A DNA stretch of 64,000 nucleotides from Gemmatimonadales bacterium (GTDB taxonomy: Bacteria > Krumholzibacteriota > Krumholzibacteriia > LZORAL124-64-63): the NCBI GenBank assembly GCA_019038745.1, contig JAHOYV010000003.1:62001-126000 (forward strand), read 5' to 3'. Within the stretch, counting starts at the first letter, position 1. Every line of letters begins with the position of its first letter. Below, piece after piece: positions 8,695 to 63,332 of the stretch. Below the pieces are notes generated by a model. That model saw only the letters and a list, made by a program, of their open reading frames with translations. It had not been told where the DNA came from and did no database searches. The position numbers were made by a program, and so were the translations under genes.

Positions 8695-10857
8695 TTAATA
8701 CCCCAATCGGCGATTCAATTCGACCAGCAGTTTTTCCGCCGCCACGGGGATTACCGTGCCGGGACCGAAGATGGCCGCCGCTCCCTGCTCCCTCAGAAAT
8801 TCATAATCCTGGGCGGGGATCACCCCTCCGCAAATGATCAGGATGTCTTCGCGGCCCAATTGTTTCAACTCCGCCACCAGAGCTGGCAGTAGGGTTTTGT
8901 GTCCGGCAGCGAGGCTGCTCATGCCCACGATGTGGACATCGTTTTCCACGGCCTGGCGGGCGGTCTCTTCCGGTGTCTGGAACAACGGTCCCACGTCCAC
9001 GTCGAAACCCAGGTCGGCAAACGCGGTGGCCACCACCTTGGCGCCGCGGTCATGCCCGTCCTGGCCCATCTTGGCTACCAGAATGCGGGGACGACGGCCC
9101 TCGTGTTCCTCAAAGCTGCGAATCAATTCTCCAACCTTGTCGATCTCTGCATCCTTTCCGAACTCGGCGGAATAGACTCCGCTGATAGTGCGAATCTCGG
9201 CCTGATGACGACCGCCGACCTCTTCCAGGGCGTCGGATATCTCGCCCAAGGTGGCCCGATGCCGAGCTGCCTCGACGGCCAGGCCCAGCAGGTTGTCTTT
9301 TCCGGATCGAGCGCAATCGGTCAGGGCCGCCAACGCCTTTGTCACCGCTGCCGTGTCCCGTTCGGCGCGTAACTCAGACAACCGGGCCACTTGTTGCCGC
9401 CGGACCTCGGTGTTGTCCACCTCGAGGATCTCGATCGGATCCTCCTTTTGCAACCGGTATTTATTCACCCCGACGAGGATCTCCTCGCCCGAATCAATAT
9501 GCGCCTGTCTGCGGGCCGAAGCCTCCTCGATACGCAGTTTGGGCAGACCGGCGTTGATGGCCGCAGCCATGCCCCCGTGCGATTCGACTTCCTCGATATG
9601 CTCCCAGGCCCTACGCATCAACCCGTCGGTAAGGGACTCAAGATACCAGGAACCTCCCCAGGGGTCGACCGTCCTGCAAATACCGGTCTCATCCTGCAGG
9701 AAGAGTTGGGTGTTCCGCGCAATGCGGGCCGAGAAATCAGTCGGCAGGGCAATAGCCTCGTCCAGGGCGTTGGTATGCAACGACTGTGTGCCTCCCAAAG
9801 CGGCCGACATGCCTTCGATGCAGGTGCGCGCCACGTTGTTGAAGGGGTCCTGTTCGGCCAGCGACCAGCCCGAGGTTTGCGAGTGCGTGCGCAGGGCCAT
9901 CGATTTGGGATTCTGCGGATCGAACTGCTTGATGATTTTGGCCCACAGCAGTCGGCCCGCCCTCAACTTGGCCATTTCCATGAAGTAGTTCATACCCTCG
10001 GCCCAGAAAAAGCTGAGTCGCGGGGCGAACTCATCGATTTTCAAGCCGGCCTTCAATCCGGTTCGCACATATTCCAAACCGTCGGCCAGGGTGTAGGCCA
10101 ACTCCAGATCCGCGGTCGCCCCGGCCTCCTGCATGTGGTAACCGCTGATCGAGATACTGTTGAATTTCGGCATATTCTGCGCCGAGTAGGCGAAGATGTC
10201 CGCGATGATGTTCATGCTGAACTCGGGAGGATAAATGTATGTGTTGCGAACCATGTATTCCTTGAGGATATCGTTCTGGATGGTCCCGGCCAATTGTTCG
10301 AGTCCTACCCCCTGTTCCTGGGCGGCCACGATGTAGAAAGCCATGATCGGCAACACCGCGCCGTTCATCGTCATCGACACGCTCATCCGGTCCAGGGGTA
10401 TTTCAGCGAAGAGCACTTTCATGTCTTCGACCGAATCGATGGCCACACCGGCCTTTCCCACGTCCCCGACTACGCGAGGGTGATCGCTGTCGTAGCCCCG
10501 ATGGGTTGCCAGATCGAAGGCCACGGACAGTCCCCGCTGGCCGGCGGCCAGGTTGCGCCGGTAGAAGGCATTGCTTTCCTCGGCCGTGGAAAAACCGGCG
10601 TATTGCCGCACGGTCCAGGGTCGGGTGACGTACATCGTCGCGTAAGGTCCGCGCAGGAACGGTGGTAGCCCGGGCAGGTGGCCCACGTGCTCGAGGTTTT
10701 CGGTATCCGCCCCGGTGTACAAGGATTTCACCGGAAGCTGCTCGTTCGTTTGCCAGACCCTGTCCAAAGGGGCTTGCCCGGTGTGGGAGGATGACTCATC
10801 CTGCCGAGTTTTCTGCCCGCTGAAAGGAATCTTTCCGAAGTTGGGAATCGTGGTCAT
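8695..10857 (-). CDS. mutB: methylmalonyl-CoA mutase, large (catalytic) subunit
   Basis: Adenosylcobalamin-dependent isomerase interconverting (R)-methylmalonyl-CoA and succinyl-CoA, 720 residues, the full family length. The substrate barrel carries [15 protein letters not shown] near residue 85 and [14 protein letters not shown] near 125. The C-terminal cobalamin domain (about 590-720) has the base-off/His-on motif DGHDRG at 600-605 (His602 is the cobalt ligand), then SSLAAGH and the GG...P elements. The start ATG overlaps the stop of mutA by 4 bp, so the two subunits are translationally coupled. The propionyl-CoA route it serves fits with the fad operon nearby. Confidence 0.98.
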
Positions 10858-13028
10858 GATCGCACCTCCCCTTCCTCTAGTGAATCCACCAGCCGGTTCA
10901 GAACCTCCAGCACATGGCTGCGGGCGTGGATGAATTCTTTGACCCCTGCCTTTTCCAAAGGCCCGGTCAATCCGTCCGGGCGGCCGGCCAGATAGACCAA
11001 GGGGGGTGGATCGAGAGCCTTGAGTCCCTCGACGGCCGGAACGGCCTGCTGGGAATAAGTGTCGTCCAATCCGACGATGACGACCGTCCTTGCATCGGAC
11101 GCCTTTGCGGCCAGGGCCACGGCTTCAGCATCCTGGAAAAATCCATCCGCCAGGACATGGAAGCCGCCCACGGCGAAGAATCGACGGGTGAAATCCAAGC
11201 GGGGCATGTACCGGGCGAAGTCACCCAGACAGGCGCACAACACACGGCCGGCACTGGGGCTTTTCAAACCGAGATCCTGGACTCTCCGGCGCAAATCCTC
11301 GAAGGGTTGGGCGTCGCGCCGCAGGGGAATTGCCTGCACGGTCGGACCGCTTCCCGGTTCATGGCCCATCGTGTGCATCATTGCGCCCAAGGTGGCTCCG
11401 TGTTTGGCGGCCTCGGCCAGTATAGGCAGGACCTGGTCCGGATCTTTTTCTCTGATTGCTTTCAGCCGTTGGAAATTTTCCTCAACCGAACCAGAGTTGC
11501 CGGCCGACTGGGTCCGGGCCATCCGGGCAACACCTTGTTCCAATAATTCGGCAGGATCAGGTTTGCGGACCTCACGTTCCGTTTCCATCGTATTGGCATA
11601 TTGGTTCGTACCTACCTGGACCATCTTTCGAACGGCCAACTTCCCGGCCCGTTTTTCTGCCGCACCGGTCACCTTTTCCTGAACAAGTCCCGATCCCAAC
11701 GCTGCGATAAGTCCGCCGGCCGTTTCTATTTCCTGGAAAACCGTCCAGGCGGCCTGTGACAGTTCGTCGGTCAGACTTTCCACGTAATAGGAGCCTCCGG
11801 CAGGATCAGCCACTTGCTCAAAGTGGCACTCCTCTGCCAACACAAGTTGCACATTGCGGGCGATGCGGCGGCTGAAATCATCAGGAATATCGTTCACTTC
11901 GTCGAAGGGACCGACGTGCAGGCTGTCTACTCCGCCCAGAACAGCGGACATGGCCTGGGTCGTGACACGCAACAGGTTGACGTGCGGGTCAAGAACCGTC
12001 TGGGTCAGACGACTGGTTCGCGCGTGAATGGTCGCGGCCGCCGTTATTTCGGGGCAGCCGATCCCGGTCAGGACCTCATGCCACAACAAACGCAAGGAGC
12101 GCACCTTGGCGATCTCCGTAAAAAAATCGGACCCCAAGGAAAGATGAAACTGCAGATGGGCGGCAGCATCCGCAGGTTCGATACCGTTCTCCTGGGCACC
12201 CCGCAACTGCTGAACGGCCGCAGCCAGGGTCAATCCCAGGCCCAGGGCCGAATCGGCGCCGCCTTCGTGGTAGGGATCCTCGAAAACGGGCAAGGTCTTC
12301 AGCCCGGGAGCGTGCTGAATGGCCCACCGGGTCAAGATCGCCAGCTCAGAGTAGGCTTGTTGCCGAGAAAGTGACAAAGAACCCCGCCGAACCAACTCGC
12401 AGGCCGGATCGAATCCCAGACAACCCTTCAACAACTCGGGGGAAATAGAATTTTTTCCAAGAAAAGCCAGCGTCAGGGCGGCGAATCCCAGGGCGGCCGA
12501 GCCGCTTTGGGTCAACAGGGGAACTCCGGTAAGATCCACGCCCGAGAGAGCCTCTTCCAGGTCGGCTAAACAAACCACGGATGTGCCGCCAACACCGACT
12601 TCACCTATGGCAGCCTGGTCGGGATCCAAACCAGCACGGCCCGCCCTATCCAGAACCAGGTTCACGGCCGACTGGCCCCGACCCAGATCCTTGACTATGG
12701 CCTCATTGAATTCCCCGCAGGAAGGAAGGAGCAATTCCTGGGCGATAAGCCAGGGCGAATCCAGGTACCCCCCACCCTTTGTCCCCCTGACAAACGGGGC
12801 CTGTCCGGGCAGACTGTCCAGCCAGGAAAAATCGCCGGTATCGGCCGCCGTGTACAACGATCTGACCCGAATTCCCTCCAGGGTTTCGGTGACCATTGTT
12901 TTGGCAAAATCGGCCCCCTTGAGCAGGCGCTTCACTTCTTCTTCCCACCGAACCAGGTTGGACTTGGGGAAGTCACCCAGGAGCGAGTTGGAGGAAGACG
13001 AGGAAAAGTTGTCGGTGCCAAGGTCCAT
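10854..13028 (-). CDS. mutA: methylmalonyl-CoA mutase, small subunit
   Basis: Non-catalytic partner of the mutase heterodimer, 724 residues, colinear with MutB. It keeps the barrel region ([34 protein letters not shown]) and the Rossmann-like C-terminal fold. The cobalamin motif is lost: where MutB has DGHDRG, this subunit reads [13 protein letters not shown], with no D-x-H-x-x-G. That is the normal state for MutA. GAGGT precedes the ATG at 13028. It is the first gene of the minus-strand mutA-mutB-HDOD-meaB run. The 308 bp upstream should carry its promoter. Confidence 0.96.
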
Positions 13029-13336: not shown

Positions 13337-15019
13337 TTAGTTGAACGACTTAACAGTCCGGAAACCGTAATAGTCATTCATTTCGTACGGGAAAGAGCTG
13401 GACCTGGCAGCGGACCGGCAGCGACTACCGTTGCTGCTCCAGTAACCGCCCCGAAGCACTCGGCTGTCACCAGAAGCAACACCCTCCGGGTCATCCTCGT
13501 CCCCGCCATAGACTCCGTACCAGTCATTGCACCACTCAAAAACATTGCCATACATATCAAGAAGCCCCCAATTACTGGCCAAATAGCTGCCGGCATCGGC
13601 GGTACGGCTGATAAAGGAACCCCTTGAGCAACCGAGGTAGGCGGCGGAACCATAGAAATTCGCTTCGATTCCAGACTCCAGACAATCCCCAGTGCTGAAG
13701 TGCGTGGTTGTACCAGCCCTGCTGGCAAACTCCCACTCTGCTTCCGTCGGCAAGCGGTAACCTGTCGCATCGTATGGATTGTCGCTGTTGCAACTCCAGG
13801 TGTTGTGATCATAGGCCCGCTCAAGACCTTCCTGCAGACTCCGCCAGTCACAAAACGCAACAGCCCCATACCAGGACACTTCCACGACCGGGCGGTCAGG
13901 ATACGAGGTGCTGAAAACACCATCGCTGAAGTTGATCTGGCAATGACTGCTTTCCAGATCGAGCAACTCGGCGGTTGATCCATCAAGGGCGTCAAGAACG
14001 TTGGCGTCGGATACCGTGACGTGGCCTTCGTCGTAAGCCCACTGCAAAGCCGCAACGTACTGGCCGTTGGTTACTTCCGTTGCAGCCATGTCGAAACGGC
14101 CGGTCAGGGTTACTTCATGCTCCGTCTCGTCGATTTCGGTTTCGAGCGTGCTGCCCATGGTAAAAGTGGCTGGAATCGAAACTGAAGCCGGGGGTACCTG
14201 AACGTATGTCTGATCTTTACCGTACAGGCCGTTGAAAACAATCGTCTCACCCGAAACCAGTACCAGAGGAGGGCTGGCCGGAGAGATAAAGCCTTCCACT
14301 TCACGCCAAATTACAGAGTATTCCCCCACGGGCATATCAGTCAGGGTCAGGTTGCCGACGCCGCTTTCCTCTTGCGGACCTTGGAGCACCCAGACAGTGC
14401 CCGCAAAACCATCGGGACTTTGGTAGATCTCGATCGTTCCCAGGCCGGTATCGTCAACATATGTGCCGCTGAAAGTCACGGAACCATCCTCGTCCAATGT
14501 CCCCGTCGCCGGGCTGGGCGCAATAAATCCAACAACAGTTTCCCAGGTCAGACTGTAGTCACCGGTCATCATATCGGTCAGGGTGGTGGCTCCGGTGCCG
14601 TCCTGTGTGTATCCATTGGGACCGGACAAATTCCATGGCGCATCAAAATCTTCCGGGGTGGGATCAATCGTCACCGAGCCGTTTTGGGTATAGTTACAGC
14701 TGAAAGTGATCGTGGAACCCGTGGTCAAGGATTGTGTGGAATAAACCGGACCGACCTTGCTCCAACCCTCAACAGCACCCCAGGAAATCGTGTATTGGCC
14801 TGTTTCCAATTCTGAAAAAGTAGAATCCGAGTTTCCTACGGCGCTCAAACCACCAGGAAAGTCAAGGATCCAGGGAATCGCTTGGCTTTCCGGGGTGCAT
14901 GCAACGACGAGGGTGCCGGATTGTGTTGGGGTTACCGAGTCTTCATCACCACAGCCGATCATGAACAGGGCAAAGACCATTGCGGCAGCAAGTAGGACTA
15001 GGTGAATTTTTCGGAGCAT
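13337..15019 (-). CDS. lipoprotein with three beta repeats and a SUMF1/FGE-type domain (paralogue 1)
   Basis: A 560-residue exported lipoprotein: signal peptide ending in lipobox FMIGC (Cys23). Three repeats of about 75-80 residues follow, each with a P-W-x-L-x-G-P core and a G-x-Y-x-(I/L)-x-W element, resembling small Ig/PEGA-like folds. From about residue 280 comes a formylglycine-generating-enzyme/sulfatase-modifying domain: TMGSTLETEIDETEHEV, YRLPTEAEWEFASRAG, GNVFEWCNDWYG, then LRGGYW, CRSAAR and GFR. By manual alignment it lacks the catalytic cysteine pair of true FGE (human Cys336/Cys341). It may instead be a binding or structural C-lectin-like relative, as in many FCB surface proteins. 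AGGGGG precedes the ATG. It shares the promoter motif of paralogues 2 and 3. Confidence 0.85.
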   Translation of the reverse strand: MLRKIHLVLLAAAMVFALFMIGCGDEDSVTPTQSGTLVVACTPESQAIPWILDFPGGLSAVGNSDSTFSELETGQYTISWGAVEGWSKVGPVYSTQSLTTGSTITFSCNYTQNGSVTIDPTPEDFDAPWNLSGPNGYTQDGTGATTLTDMMTGDYSLTWETVVGFIAPSPATGTLDEDGSVTFSGTYVDDTGLGTIEIYQSPDGFAGTVWVLQGPQEESGVGNLTLTDMPVGEYSVIWREVEGFISPASPPLVLVSGETIVFNGLYGKDQTYVQVPPASVSIPATFTMGSTLETEIDETEHEVTLTGRFDMAATEVTNGQYVAALQWAYDEGHVTVSDANVLDALDGSTAELLDLESSHCQINFSDGVFSTSYPDRPVVEVSWYGAVAFCDWRSLQEGLERAYDHNTWSCNSDNPYDATGYRLPTEAEWEFASRAGTTTHFSTGDCLESGIEANFYGSAAYLGCSRGSFISRTADAGSYLASNWGLLDMYGNVFEWCNDWYGVYGGDEDDPEGVASGDSRVLRGGYWSSNGSRCRSAARSSSFPYEMNDYYGFRTVKSFN

Positions 15020-15099
15020 TGGAAATTCCCCCTGGGGAGTTGTTTATCGCGAATGCCAAGTGGCGAGAGCCAGATTTTGCGCCAAAGATCACTCTTCTT

Positions 15100-15128
15100 A
15101 GAGTACCCCTCAGCACTTTTATTCACAA
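15100..15128 (-). promoter_or_regulatory. sigma70-like promoter of lipoprotein paralogue 1
   Basis: On the minus strand TTGTGA (15128-15123), 17 bases, then TACTCT (15105-15100), about 80 bp before the ATG. The element is nearly identical over more than 40 bp to the one upstream of paralogue 2. It is less closely matched upstream of paralogue 3. Confidence 0.55.
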
Positions 15129-15242
15129 GAAAATTTCTCGATTTGCCTGCTCGTTCTTGATGGTCCCCAATAAAAATTTGGGCCAGTTCAATGGCAGAGC
15201 AGGAGATTTGCAACATCCAATTAGAGTCGGAGCTGCGCTGCA

Positions 15243-16946
15243 TCAGGGGATCGACCTCACTGACCGGAAACCGAAGGCGTAGTCCGTGTAGTCCGGGTTG
15301 TAGTTGTACCGGGCGGCCGAGCGACAACTGTCCGCGATGCTGATCCAGGAGCCGCCACGAAGCACTCGGCTATCACCAGATCCTGCGCCTACCGGGTCAT
15401 CCTCGTCCCCGCCATAGATTCCGTATCGGTCATTGCACCATTCAAAAACATTGCCATGGATGTCAAGTAGTCCCCAGTCATTGGTCGAATAACCACCTAC
15501 ATCGGAACTGCGGACAAGATATGGGCCCGTCCCGCAACCGGAGAGGGGGAAACCCCAGGGGACCCCTCCATTGAAGTTCGCCTCGGTCTCGGCATTCAAA
15601 CAATTTCCAGTGTTGAAGCGCGTGGTCGTGCCGGCCCTGCAGGCAAATTCCCACTCCGCTTCCGTCGGCAAACGGTAGCCTGCCGCATCGTAGGGATTGT
15701 CACTGTTGCAGCTCCAGGTGCTGTGATCATAGGCCCGGTCCAGTCCATCCTGCATACTCTGCCAGTCACAAAACGCAACAGCCCCATACCAAGACACTTC
15801 CACAACCGGGCGATTAGGATACGAAGCGCTGAAAACACCCTCGCTGAAGTTGATCTGGCAATGATCGCTTTCAAGGTCGAGCAACTCGGCGGTTGACCCA
15901 TCAAGGACGTCAAGAACGCTGGCATCGGTAACCGTGACGTGGCCTTCATCGTAAGCCCACTGCAAGGCCTCAACGTACTGGCCGTTGGTTACTTCCGTTG
16001 CGGCCATATCGAAACGGCCGTTCAGGGTTACTTCGTGCTTCGTCTCATCGCTTTCCAGGTCGAACGTGCTGCCCATGGTAAAAGTGACGGGGATCGACAC
16101 CGAAGCCGGAGGTATCTGAACGTAGGCCTGATCTTTACCGTACGTGCCGTTGAAAACCACCGTACCACCGGTCACCAGGGCCTGCGGCAGACTGACCGGA
16201 GCTATAAAACCGTCCACATCCAACCAAGTCAGCGAGTATTGCCCGACTGGCATTTCATTAAATTTCATGTACCCGGAACCGGTCTCGTCTTGCGGGCCAG
16301 TGAGCGACCAGCCCGTATCCTTCAAACCATCAGGGGTTTGATAGATCTCGATTGTTCCCAGGCCGGTATCGTCAACGTAGGTGCCGCTGAAAGTCACGAA
16401 ACTACCCTCGTCCATTGTCGCCGTTTCCGGGTTCGTGCTGGGCAAAATATAACCAGCTACAGCTTCCCAGGTCAGAGTGTAGTCACCCAGGGCCATATCA
16501 GTCAGTGTGAGGTCTTCGGTGCCATTCAGGCTGTAATCATCGGGACCCTCCAAAAGCCATGGCGCATCTAGATTGTCGGGGGTGACGTCGATGACTATGG
16601 AGCCCTTTTCGCCATAGCTTCCACTAAATGTTATGGTTTCACCCACAGCCAGGTTTTGGGTCGAATGATCCGGGCTGGGCTGGATCAGACCTTCAATTTC
16701 ACCCCACGTAATGGTGTATTCGCCTACTTCCACCGCGTCAAAAACAGCGTCCGATACCCCGACCGAATTCAAACCCCCAGGATAGGTTAAGATCCATGGA
16801 ATTGCCCGATTATCAGGGGTGCAGGATACGATAACGGTACCCTTTGCTGAGGGGCCTACCACGTCATCGTCTTCTCCACAGCCGACCATGAACAGGGCAA
16901 CGACCATTACGGCGGCAAGAAGGACTAGGTGAGCTTTTCGATGCAT
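15243..16946 (-). CDS. lipoprotein with three beta repeats and a SUMF1/FGE-type domain (paralogue 2)
   Basis: A 567-residue lipoprotein, close paralogue of the preceding gene throughout. Lipobox FMVGC is followed by an acidic linker. Then come three P-W-x-L-x-G-P repeats and the SUMF1-type domain (YRLPTEAEWEFACRAG, GNVFEWCNDRYG, LRGGSW, SCRSAAR, GFRSVRS). The paired catalytic cysteines of authentic FGE are again absent. I start at ATG 16946, where a typical lipoprotein signal begins and AGGGGG lies just upstream. A longer frame to 17009 would put 21 residues before the signal peptide and is unlikely. It has its own promoter, so the three genes are probably separate transcription units. Confidence 0.85.
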   Translation of the reverse strand: MHRKAHLVLLAAVMVVALFMVGCGEDDDVVGPSAKGTVIVSCTPDNRAIPWILTYPGGLNSVGVSDAVFDAVEVGEYTITWGEIEGLIQPSPDHSTQNLAVGETITFSGSYGEKGSIVIDVTPDNLDAPWLLEGPDDYSLNGTEDLTLTDMALGDYTLTWEAVAGYILPSTNPETATMDEGSFVTFSGTYVDDTGLGTIEIYQTPDGLKDTGWSLTGPQDETGSGYMKFNEMPVGQYSLTWLDVDGFIAPVSLPQALVTGGTVVFNGTYGKDQAYVQIPPASVSIPVTFTMGSTFDLESDETKHEVTLNGRFDMAATEVTNGQYVEALQWAYDEGHVTVTDASVLDVLDGSTAELLDLESDHCQINFSEGVFSASYPNRPVVEVSWYGAVAFCDWQSMQDGLDRAYDHSTWSCNSDNPYDAAGYRLPTEAEWEFACRAGTTTRFNTGNCLNAETEANFNGGVPWGFPLSGCGTGPYLVRSSDVGGYSTNDWGLLDIHGNVFEWCNDRYGIYGGDEDDPVGAGSGDSRVLRGGSWISIADSCRSAARYNYNPDYTDYAFGFRSVRSIP

Positions 16947-17023
16947 GGGAAATCCCCCTGGGGAGTTATTTTTGCAAATGAAATCGGCGAAACTAGGATT
17001 AGGTGCCAAGGACCACTCTTCTT

Positions 17024-17052
17024 AGAGTACCCCTCGGCACTTTTATTGACAA
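17024..17052 (-). promoter_or_regulatory. sigma70-like promoter of lipoprotein paralogue 2
   Basis: On the minus strand TTGTCA (17052-17047), 17 bases, then TACTCT (17029-17024), 78 bp before the ATG at 16946. Its position argues for the shorter protein start. The surrounding sequence matches the paralogue 1 promoter almost base for base. Confidence 0.6.
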
Positions 17053-17156
17053 GAAAATTTCTCTGTTTGACTGCTCATTTTTGAGGGTTCTGTATAAGTT
17101 CGGCACTCAACCGCCCTTTAGGATGACAAGTGGGAAGGCTGCGATTCTAAGGGGCA

Positions 17157-18380
17157 TCAGCTGGTCGACCTCACCGGCCGGAAGCCGCTGACGTCACTCG
17201 AATAGGATGGGCTGCTGCCGAATCGGTAGGCCGAACGGCAGTGGTTCGCAAAGTAGTACCAGCTGCCGCCACGAAATACCCGGGCATCCCCCGATCCGGC
17301 ACTCACGGGGTCCGTCTCGTCTCCGCTATAGTCTGCAAACCAATCATTGCACCATTCCACTACATTCCCGTGCATTTCGAAAAGCCCCCAACCATTGGCC
17401 GGATAGCTGCCGACATCGACGGTGCGGCCAAGATAGAGACCCATCGGGCAGTCGGTGTAGGGGTTGAATCCCCTGTAATTCGCCTCAGTATCAGCATCCA
17501 GACAATCCCCTGTATTGAAGGGAGTCGCCGTACCGGCCCGGCAGGCAAATTCCCACTCCGCCTCTGTAGGCAGACGATAACCTGTCGCATCGTACGGATT
17601 GTCGCTGTTACAACTCCAGGTGCTGTGATCATAGGACCGCGGAAGGCTTTCCTGCAGGCTCAGCCAGTCACAATACGCCGCCGCCCCATACCAGGACACC
17701 TCGACAACCGGTCGCTCGGGGTAGGGCGTGCTGAAAGTCCCATCGCTGAAGCTGATCTGGCAACCACTGTTACCCAGGTAAAGCAAATCAGAAGTTGAAC
17801 CATCCAGGGCGTCCTGAACACTTTCGGCCGTAGCAGTAACGTGGCCCTGGTTGTAGGCCCACTGCAAAGCTTCAACATATTGACCATTGGTAATCTCTGT
17901 TTCCGCCATTTCGAAACGGCCATTCAGAGTTACCTCGTGCGGGGTCTCGTTGCTTTCTGCCGTACCGCCCATGGTGAAGGTAATGGGCAGGGTTACTGAG
18001 GCAGGTGGAATCAGAGCATAATCCCCCGTTAGTCCCGGAAAATCAACGTACGTGCCGCTGAACGACACCGTACTGTCGTCGACCAGCGTTTGAGTTGAAT
18101 GCGAGGGCCTGGTCCAGCCGTACACCGGACCCCAAACCAGCGTGTATTCACCGAGATTCAATTTCAGCAAGGTCTCGTCCCCATTGCCACTTGTGGTATA
18201 GCTATCAGGCCCGAAAAGTACCCAGGGAGCGTTCAATGAATCAGGTGTCGGCTCAATCACGATCGTTCCGGTAACATCAGGGGTCACGAGTCCCGAACCA
18301 TCATCACTACCACAGCCTATCATGAACAGGGCAAAAAGCAGGGTTGCAGCAAGCAGGGGCAGATGAATTTTTCGGCGCAT
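17157..18380 (-). CDS. lipoprotein with one beta repeat and a SUMF1/FGE-type domain (paralogue 3)
   Basis: A 407-residue member of the same family. Lipobox FMIGC (Cys23) is followed by only one P-W-x-L-x-G-P repeat, against three in its neighbours. The SUMF1-type domain follows (FTMGGTAESNETPHEV, YRLPTEAEWEFACRAG, GNVVEWCNDWFADY, FRGGSWYYF, CRSAYR, GFRPVRS). It also lacks the FGE cysteine pair. AGGGAGA precedes the ATG. Differing repeat number in otherwise similar tandem genes points to duplication followed by repeat gain or loss. The ligand or partner is unknown; the protein should be anchored by lipid facing the periplasm or the cell surface. Confidence 0.85.
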   Translation of the reverse strand: MRRKIHLPLLAATLLFALFMIGCGSDDGSGLVTPDVTGTIVIEPTPDSLNAPWVLFGPDSYTTSGNGDETLLKLNLGEYTLVWGPVYGWTRPSHSTQTLVDDSTVSFSGTYVDFPGLTGDYALIPPASVTLPITFTMGGTAESNETPHEVTLNGRFEMAETEITNGQYVEALQWAYNQGHVTATAESVQDALDGSTSDLLYLGNSGCQISFSDGTFSTPYPERPVVEVSWYGAAAYCDWLSLQESLPRSYDHSTWSCNSDNPYDATGYRLPTEAEWEFACRAGTATPFNTGDCLDADTEANYRGFNPYTDCPMGLYLGRTVDVGSYPANGWGLFEMHGNVVEWCNDWFADYSGDETDPVSAGSGDARVFRGGSWYYFANHCRSAYRFGSSPSYSSDVSGFRPVRSTS

Positions 18381-18508: not shown

Positions 18509-19096
18509 TCAACAACCCAACCCCCCGAACAAAAACTCAACAACACTGGCAGACTTGCTCTCCAGCCTCGTATTGCGATGCGATAAAATCCAGTCCGTCG
18601 CCATCTCATCCAAAACCCCGAAAATTGACTTGGCCGCAAAGACGGGATCCAAGTCGGACCGAAAATCCCCCTCCTGCTGCCCCTGGATTACAACCTGGGC
18701 CAAAATCCCCAGGTATTCCCCCACCAAAGTACGCGAAAGCTGGTCCATAAAGTGTAAACTGTGACGCAACTCGACCTGAGTGATAATGGCCAAATCCCGG
18801 TCTTGCCCCACCAGGGTCAGATGCAACTCCACGATCCGAATAAGCTTTTCCCGGGCAGAAGCCGCCTGCTCCAAGCTCGCCTTCCCCTCCGAAATGAACC
18901 GACCCATGGCCCGGTCGAAAAGGCTGAACAGCAGCTGTTCCTTGTTCTTGAAGTACAGGTAAATGGTACCGTCGGCCACCCCGGCCCGCTTGGCGATCAT
19001 GGCCACCGTGGTGGAGTGATAACCCCGTCGGGCGATCTCCACGACCGCCGCGTCCAGGATTCTCTCACGTTTACTGCCATCGCCATTACGAGCCAT
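18509..19096 (-). CDS. TetR-family repressor, FadR-like, of the fad operon
   Basis: A 195-residue TetR regulator. The N-terminal helix-turn-helix (about 10-55) reads RERILDAAVVEIARRGYHST, then MIAKRAGVADGTIYLYFKNK. The C-terminal ligand domain resembles that of acyl-CoA-responsive FadR-type TetR proteins from Bacillus and Thermus. It is divergent from fadNAE, and a perfect TGAATG-GT-CATTCA dyad overlies the likely transcription start of that operon, so it most likely represses fad genes until long-chain acyl-CoA appears. ATG 19096 is preferred over TTG 19099. The match to FadR is by context and fold; the ligand is inferred. Confidence 0.85.
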   Translation of the reverse strand: MARNGDGSKRERILDAAVVEIARRGYHSTTVAMIAKRAGVADGTIYLYFKNKEQLLFSLFDRAMGRFISEGKASLEQAASAREKLIRIVELHLTLVGQDRDLAIITQVELRHSLHFMDQLSRTLVGEYLGILAQVVIQGQQEGDFRSDLDPVFAAKSIFGVLDEMATDWILSHRNTRLESKSASVVEFLFGGLGC

Positions 19097-19240
19097 CAAA
19101 ATGAAGCCTTATTCAGAAACTTAAAGCACTGGATTCTGGGGAAGACAAGAAATAGTTCCCGAAAACCTCTCTCATTTCTCGCAATTATATCAAATTCAAA
19201 GAATTAAAACAAGTCCACAAAATTAGCAGAACTAAAGTCG

Positions 19241-61859: not shown

Positions 61860-63332
61860 CTACTTCAGCAGAGTCACCGTGCGGGCGGCGAAGCCCTCCT
61901 TATCCTGAATGGTTACCCGATAAAGGCCGGCTGACAGGGAACGCCCCGCCTGGTCACAACCCTCGAAGTGGAACCGGGCTAAACCGGAGGAATCAAGAAT
62001 CAGGGAATCGCCCAGGAGCCGGCGACCTCGCAGATCCACCACCTGGACCTGGACTCGGCTTCCGGGTGATCCGGAAATATCGAGCGATGACCGGGGATTG
62101 CAGGGATTGGGATAGGCGTGGGCCAAGTGCAGCCGGCCGGCCGCAGGCACCGGTCCTACCATCGGTGTGGAAGCGCTTTTGGACGGCAGAATGAACTGGT
62201 AGGGAGGCAGTCCCGTGGGAATCGAACCCGTGGTCAATTCGGCCCCGCTGGCCGTGTCGAAAACGCGCAAACCCGACGCGCCCATGGTCCGGTCGGCCAG
62301 ATAGAGTTGGAATTCCCCATCGAAGGCAAGATCAGCGTGGACGTAACCGCTGCCGTTATCCAGAACCGTAACCTGCCCGGTGGTCAGATTCACTTTGCGC
62401 AAGCTGGTAATGAACGAGGAATTGCTGACCAGGATGTGCACCGAGCCTGAGCCTGTCCCGGTAAAACCGACAATATCCCCTTCCAAATCCGTTTCGGTTA
62501 CAAGGTAGCCCGTACTGACTCCCGCCAGGGAATCCACCTGCTCCAGCCCCCCGTCCTGCAGTCCGTAATAGCCCACGCACCCTACTCGCAGGAAAGGGTT
62601 ATCCGTTCCGTTGGGGGACACCTCGATCCGGGTGTATGGATTACCGCCTTGCAACTCGATGGGCTGAATTCCCGACAACCCAGGATCCATGTCCATCCAT
62701 TTTTCCTCGGCCATGTCGAAAACCAACAGGGCTCCCGGTCCGGAGGGCGAATAGTAATTGTCGCGGTCTAATTTCTGGCAAGTGATATACAGACGGTCGC
62801 CAAGCGCCTGCATCCCGGCCGTTTCCGGAAGCCCGTCCGCATCAGCGAAAGAGGAAGTATCGAAGGATTCGAGAATTTGTTCCGTCTGCACATCCACCTT
62901 CAGCAACACGGCCCGGTCATAGCAACTGATGTAGGCCTCACCCTGGGAGTCGAACGCTATATCCTGTGGATTGAGCCCCGAGCCCAGGCTGAATTCCTTG
63001 ACCAGCGAGAAACCTGTTTCCGGATCGTAAACCTGAATGGAATTGGTCGTTCCGCGCCCGACCACATATACCCTGCCGTCGTGGTACCGGCCGCCCGGAT
63101 CGCCGGGAATGGTGGCAAGGTCCCCGCTGACGATCCAGGGGGACTCCCCGGAAAAGGCCCGTACCCGGCCGAAGGTGCTGTAGTCGGTGGTGAGGATCCA
63201 GCCTGAATCCAACGCAACGGCCGGCAAGGAAGCTACGCCACACAGGCAGACCCCCAACACAATTGCGAAGTTCAACAAGCGGTTCCTGCGGAAGATCCCG
63301 AGACGGGTTATCGAGATTGTTGTTACAATCAT
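61860..63332 (-). CDS. secreted beta-propeller protein with C-terminal sorting tail
   Basis: 490 residues: signal peptide (core LLNFAIVLGVCLCGVASLPA), then about 350 residues of YVTN/SMP-30-like beta-propeller blades (YHDGRVYVVGRGTTNSIQVY; PQDIAFDSQGEAYISCYDR; VHADLAFDGEFQLYLADRT). A C-terminal module of about 80 residues (AYPNPCNPRSS, VQVVDLRGRRL, SAGLYRVTI, ending RTVTLLK) is of the FlgD/T9SS-tail type. Beta-propellers like this often act as extracellular binding proteins. It lies 59 bp before the TonB-dependent receptor stop on the same strand. Confidence 0.85.
   Translation of the reverse strand: MIVTTISITRLGIFRRNRLLNFAIVLGVCLCGVASLPAVALDSGWILTTDYSTFGRVRAFSGESPWIVSGDLATIPGDPGGRYHDGRVYVVGRGTTNSIQVYDPETGFSLVKEFSLGSGLNPQDIAFDSQGEAYISCYDRAVLLKVDVQTEQILESFDTSSFADADGLPETAGMQALGDRLYITCQKLDRDNYYSPSGPGALLVFDMAEEKWMDMDPGLSGIQPIELQGGNPYTRIEVSPNGTDNPFLRVGCVGYYGLQDGGLEQVDSLAGVSTGYLVTETDLEGDIVGFTGTGSGSVHILVSNSSFITSLRKVNLTTGQVTVLDNGSGYVHADLAFDGEFQLYLADRTMGASGLRVFDTASGAELTTGSIPTGLPPYQFILPSKSASTPMVGPVPAAGRLHLAHAYPNPCNPRSSLDISGSPGSRVQVQVVDLRGRRLLGDSLILDSSGLARFHFEGCDQAGRSLSAGLYRVTIQDKEGFAARTVTLLK

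Follow-up and report, generated by a model that had tools for sequence, protein, structure and literature searches.

The closest described counterparts of the genes reported here are lipoproteins diversified in Treponema denticola. As described in PMC4891356, the variable lipoproteins that its diversity-generating retroelement (DGR) targets have a lipoprotein signal and a C-type-lectin-like (CLec) head of the formylglycine-generating enzyme (FGE) subtype with a C-terminal variable region (VR), and several such targets are dispersed in the genome. The same paper reports isolates that have neither the reverse transcriptase (RT) nor the template repeat (TR) and still keep the targets. TvpA is a single-domain protein (PMC6328139). 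We analyzed a window of 64,000 nt (positions 62,001 to 126,000 of contig JAHOYV010000003.1, assembly GCA_019038745.1) from Gemmatimonadales bacterium, placed in the Krumholzibacteriota by GTDB, and describe a trio of adjacent genes in it, A, B and C. Our reading, to which we give a probability of about 0.62, is that they encode lipid-anchored, ligand-binding proteins of the DGR-target type, with heads that make no formylglycine, tails that were randomized by a DGR and then fixed, and a DGR core that has since been lost. They are probably relics of that lost DGR and, less likely, targets of one that escaped assembly; by analogy with the leftover targets already known in T. denticola, they would add another case.

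Like TvpA and the T. denticola targets, the trio proteins join an FGE-subtype CLec head to a lipoprotein signal and a VR-like C-terminal tail, and have dispersed paralogues. Unlike TvpA, the family to which the trio belongs places one to six beta-sandwich repeats ahead of the head, belongs to another phylum and has no known template. A structure model of gene C (pLDDT 83) predicts that a CLec-type head is present: TvpA is the best match by VIA (Z 28.3, root-mean-square deviation 2.4, 237 aligned) and ranks first by Foldseek and by sequence as well (E 6e-19), and the phage DGR protein Mtd is matched at Z 14.1. The trio also shares its domain family and fold with SUMF1, the formylglycine-generating enzyme (VIA Z 26.8 for human FGE, second to TvpA), but its catalytic cysteine pair is incomplete. 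Across the 31 rows aligned, A, B and C each carry another residue in place of the first catalytic cysteine and retain the second, and so lack the paired active-site cysteines of FGE; both are present in the five rows that have the FGE motif (L091, L098, L111, L113 and L115). The first-pass annotation of the window, made from its letters alone, had described FGE-type domains without the paired catalytic cysteines, and this stands, with no pair recovered in the alignment. On the other refuting condition that it had named, sulfatase genes nearby, the genome has five sulfatase matches, none on the trio's contig (C2); one adjoins an FGE-domain gene elsewhere. That gene (L012, 1501-2244; C12:55403-56146) is repeat-less and lies directly upstream of the sulfatase gene at C12:56287-57225. 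The annotation's preference for a ligand-binding over a formylglycine-forming role is supported by the loss of the first cysteine, TvpA as the nearest solved relative and the lack of a sulfatase on C2. From these observations we infer that the heads bind ligands, and the proteins probably sit on the cell surface.

The evidence that suggests a DGR origin lies in the C-terminal 31 codons. These follow a consensus that changes little, G-G-x-W-x6-C-R-S-A-x-R-x4-P-x7-G-F-R, and their variable and fixed positions are arranged as in the template of G010, a genome from a sister genus in the same bacterial family (template translation GGSWNNDARNCRSANRNRNDPSNANNNLGFR). At the 16 variable codons, A, B and C differ pairwise at 50-81% of positions 1-2 (random expectation 75%) and at 25-38% of third positions, compared with 7-20% and 26-53%, respectively, at the 15 fixed tail codons and ~236 upstream codons; this comparison covers the A-B and B-C pairs in full. 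Almost all variable tail codons of the trio (47/48) end in a pyrimidine (NNY), against 34/60 in the 20 columns ahead of the tail at which the three genes all differ (Fisher 2e-7). Nine paralogues in the window genome (G000) show the same pattern with more decay (127/144 against 229/360). These nine were drawn from 13 PF03781 matches, with L001 and L012 left out for having no repeat match, L013 as a fragment, and L011, which has one repeat, for a tail longer by one residue. When codons are matched by residue, NNY accounts for all 21 in the trio (14.9 expected, p 5e-4) and 54 of 62 in the nine genes (40.5 expected, p 6e-5), with no excess at the fixed tail codons of the nine (59/103, 56.3 expected, p 0.32). 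Tails of relatives in genomes without a DGR-type RT have an NNY excess short of significance (73/115, 67.3 expected, p 0.14). Tails were counted if they fitted a regular expression, which gave 10 from G000, 16 from relatives and 35 from genome contigs, where 80 of 539 relatives were taken in; for the residue-matched comparison across genomes, the three G010 tails formed a group of their own, the G000 set excluded L012, and the genome-contig set excluded L039 as a duplicate of L123. The base make-up of positions 1-2 in the variable tail codons (A.42, C.08, G.24, T.26) is close to that found at the AAY codons of the G010 VR pair (A.38, C.03, G.35, T.25); varying pre-tail columns have A.30 and C.19.

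G010 carries a complete DGR on this same type of tail, with VR, HRDC-domain gene, RT (motifs IGNLTSQ and YMDD) and TR on one 3.2-kb contig (G010:C252, loci L022 and L164), the HRDC-domain gene adjoining the RT. Its cis VR differs from the TR at 14 of 25 adenines and none of 68 other bases, and a second VR on another contig (L127) differs at 16 of 25 adenines and again at none of the 68. Since the changes in L127 fall only at template adenines, action in trans within the bacterial family is indicated. As in the trio, an FGE tail serves as the VR with a matching layout of fixed and variable codons; unlike G000, G010 has both RT and TR. The G010 template was rejected as the source of the trio tails, which differ from it at 21-26 of the 68 non-adenine bases. 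A further complete DGR was found in a planctomycete metagenome-assembled genome (MAG; L062, 5098-8309), where VR and TR differ at 14 of 32 adenines and none of 61 other bases. Repeats, which we take to be TIG/IPT-like, precede an FGE head carrying the VR there as in the trio, but the cassette is complete in cis, with an Avd-like gene (bAvd 29.6 bits, below the cut-off of 40), RT and TR adjacent.

On our reading, a beta-sandwich stalk of variable length would bear a CLec head of the FGE subtype that no longer makes formylglycine. Its putative binding loops, encoded by the last ~31 codons, would have been randomized by DGR-type mutagenesis turning template AAY into NNY, and the randomized tails then retained as fixed variants across a dispersed paralogue family, with the DGR core (RT and template) most likely lost from the lineage. 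Several observations weigh against this account. Human FGE fits the gene C model nearly as well as TvpA does. No DGR-type RT was found in G000, a draft 91.09% complete in 112 contigs, either with RVT_1 or with the DGR RTs of L022 and L062 as queries (0 matches each). A DNA query with the G010 TR reached only E 0.03 there and the AAY pattern had no match, which leaves the adenine specificity of the trio's tails presumptive. Avd (PF05635) matched 3 of 38 genomes and neither G000 nor its congener G001, the HRDC and bAvd models not having been run genome-wide. In addition, 32 FGE tails from other genomes, at loci without an RT motif, have a residue-matched NNY excess of their own (181/266, 147.2 expected, p 4e-6), so the NNY measure may partly be intrinsic to FGE tails: either the tail favors such codons or remote DGR targets are numerous among the 32. 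Most distant pairs in other genomes also have dissimilar tails (the tail-versus-upstream comparison used 106 upstream residues for A-B and B-C, locus L004 cutting gene B). Because other-genome tails show both features, specificity rests on the codon-position contrast in the trio and not on NNY alone. Between the tails of A and B, fixed codons diverge as much as upstream DNA does and third positions differ in 12 of 31 codons, no lower than upstream (63/238), and the tails were therefore not recently rewritten from one shared template.

The alternative that survives best, although we hold it to be unlikely, is that a DGR is still active, its RT and template lying in the ~9% of the genome that the draft lacks, or on a plasmid or prophage left unbinned, and acting in trans on the dispersed tails. 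The incomplete, fragmented state of G000 would allow for this, G010 provides an example of a trans VR on a separate contig, and the nearly uniform NNY codons of the trio suggest little decay. Against it, RVT_1 matches neither G000 nor G001, which is 96% complete; the G010 DGR RT query misses both, its matches being to 15 of 80 class genomes (E 2e-237 for G010 itself, E 2e-22 or weaker for the rest); and silent sites in the tails are not homogenized to a single template. RVT_1 matches occur in 10 of 38 genomes searched, and a script check, which covered these 18 RVT_1 loci and not the further loci from the G010 RT query, found the DGR-type motif only in L022. Loss of the DGR core is the simpler reading because an RT match is missing in both members of the genus; since G000 is 91% complete, absence of the RT from it is not proven.

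The PF03781 route to a template, which recovers the G010 TR (E 1e-5), led in G000 only to L013, which is not AAY-rich. It was rejected as the missing template, being identical to the L006 tail at 131 of 134 positions with none of the three differences at an adenine. L013 (1501-1634; C38:24846-24979) is a free-standing, VR-sized copy of that tail, 134 nt long including the stop codon, 5.6 kb downstream of the original and next to open reading frames (ORFs) that by eye resemble transposase remnants. It may represent the remnant of a rewriting or capture event, or a source for further tail exchange by recombination. A VR was also considered as the cause of a break in contig C4, whose terminus lies ~100 nt beyond the end of the FGE gene L003, and rejected, as the terminus resembles a tRNA gene by eye.

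We regard it as improbable that no DGR was ever involved and that exposed binding-site loops simply diverged by positive selection or relaxed constraint, like those of many FGE/CLec relatives. The equally dissimilar tails of distant pairs and the NNY excess in the 32 tails without an RT motif would fit this, but selection on residues leaves the third-position pyrimidines unexplained, as the residue-matched trio codons show, and fixed tail codons have no such excess. FGE tails, moreover, are not always fast: an orthologue pair from G019 and G010 retains its tail, with an identity of 0.94 at variable positions and 0.89 upstream. Least plausible by far is that the trio encodes FGE-fold enzymes, whether formylglycine-generating or of the EgtB, SenA or PvdO type, or else ring lipoproteins of the T9SS (GldK/PorK). 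In favor are the common fold, weak family matches and sulfatases in the genome, and against are the lost first cysteine, a hypervariable loop where the active site would be expected, and NCBIfam scores far under the equivalog cut-offs (GldK at most 90.9 of 350, EgtB 65.1 of 360, PvdO 55.2 of 500, SenA 71.4 of 420).

The fold predicted for the repeats is consistent with a stalk. A profile of the ~75-aa repeat finds three, three and one strong copies in A, B and C, as the first-pass annotation had counted; one weak match per protein (E 0.009-0.033), inside the FGE domain region, is left out of these counts. Modeled alone, the single repeat of gene C is a predicted seven-stranded beta-sandwich (pLDDT 97), closest to CnaB/transthyretin-like adhesin and pilin domains (best VIA Z 10.6 to 6fwv, root-mean-square deviation 1.7, 74 aligned; further matches Z 7.4-9.7; Foldseek E 6e-3 at best). 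The repeats may resemble the stalk domains of Gram-positive adhesins in predicted fold; their sequence matched no CnaB-type or transthyretin-type Pfam family, and the annotation's term 'Ig-like' applies only in the broad sense of a beta-sandwich. The repeat occurs at FGE loci of several genomes in the bacterial family, in one to six copies, whereas loci L040-L118, from other phyla, gave no copy. Since this architecture is spread across the family, repeat number is a slow, lineage-wide variation. Of the active duplication and domain shuffling first proposed, the duplication is real and repeat number is a minor and slow component; rapid change falls in the C-terminal tail, a feature that had escaped the annotation. 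Locus L015 (43-960, contig C38) has several repeats of the same type without an FGE domain, as classed by eye, and adjoins a cluster of three repeat-FGE genes.

The features of the trio are listed in the table below. The N-termini share M-x-R-K and, by eye, a lipobox F-M-[IV]-G-C with its cysteine at residue 23, confirming the lipoprotein signals first noted in all three paralogues. The length of gene B is counted from an ATG; its ORF as listed begins at a TTG farther upstream.

Features of the lipoprotein gene trio (window positions)
Feature	Coordinates	Strand	Evidence or note
Gene A: lipoprotein, 3 beta-sandwich repeats + FGE/CLec domain	13337..15019	-	560 aa
Gene A lipoprotein signal, Cys23	14951..15019	-	sequence; repeated DNA family D3
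Gene A repeats 1-3	14219..14917 (14687-14917, 14456-14680, 14219-14440)	-	repeat profile
Gene A FGE-sulfatase (CLec-type) domain	13349..14188	-	Pfam PF03781, E 4e-45
Gene A VR-like hypervariable tail	13358..13450	-	31 codons; 15/16 variable codons NNY
Intergenic stretch in duplicated unit	15062..15173	.	repeat family D5; 80% identical to 16986-17097
Gene B: lipoprotein, 3 repeats + FGE/CLec domain	15243..16946	-	567 aa
Gene B lipoprotein signal, Cys23	16878..16946	-	sequence; repeated DNA family D3
Gene B repeats 1-3	16137..16841 (16611-16841, 16374-16604, 16137-16358)	-	repeat profile
Gene B FGE-sulfatase (CLec-type) domain	15255..16085	-	Pfam PF03781, E 1e-44
Gene B VR-like hypervariable tail	15264..15356	-	31 codons; 16/16 variable codons NNY
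Intergenic stretch, partner of 15062-15173	16986..17097	.	repeat family D5
Gene C: lipoprotein, 1 repeat + FGE/CLec domain	17157..18380	-	407 aa
Gene C lipoprotein signal, Cys23	18312..18380	-	sequence; repeated DNA family D3
Gene C single repeat	18045..18269	-	repeat profile; folded alone at pLDDT 97
Gene C FGE-sulfatase (CLec-type) domain	17169..17981	-	Pfam PF03781, E 1e-45; structure model
Gene C VR-like hypervariable tail	17178..17270	-	31 codons; 16/16 variable codons NNY

Repeat analysis of the window found the leader in three copies, the intergenic stretch in two and the domain in three, all recurring with constant spacing. The trio is therefore a real tandem duplication, as the annotation had held, with a unit comprising leader, intergenic DNA and gene. 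It is flanked by a methylmalonyl-CoA mutase gene (10854-13028, PF01642) and a TetR-type regulator (18509-19099). In the congener G001, which is distant from G000 (mutase identity 55%), two genes occupy the mutase-TetR interval on the reverse strand, one for a methyl-accepting chemotaxis protein and one a 428-aa ORF that matches no Pfam family and looks porin-like by eye; ORFs of at least 150 aa there included no visible FGE gene, and the trio is thus confined to one side of the G000/G001 split. The closest public relative is a locus in a Candidatus Krumholzibacteriota MAG (L039, 43% identity over query residues 1-558), which, to judge from an identical tail, appears to be the class member G013. 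A promoter and terminator scan gave nothing exceeding shuffled controls, Rfam had no matches, and PADLOC had none for genes A and C, the two submitted.

It is possible, though we would not count on it, that a binding repertoire made by a DGR has here outlived its machine, at least nine dispersed paralogues with unrelated tips being retained in the genome as a set of fixed receptors. The findings extend DGR-type variable lipoproteins to a lineage that we take to be Krumholzibacteriota, a combination of terms for which a literature search found no paper. They also offer a sequence test for DGR targets in draft genomes without RT or template, namely positions 1-2 saturated, position 3 a pyrimidine and fixed codons normal. 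The dispersed family lets the fate of hypervariable receptors be followed after their mutator is lost.

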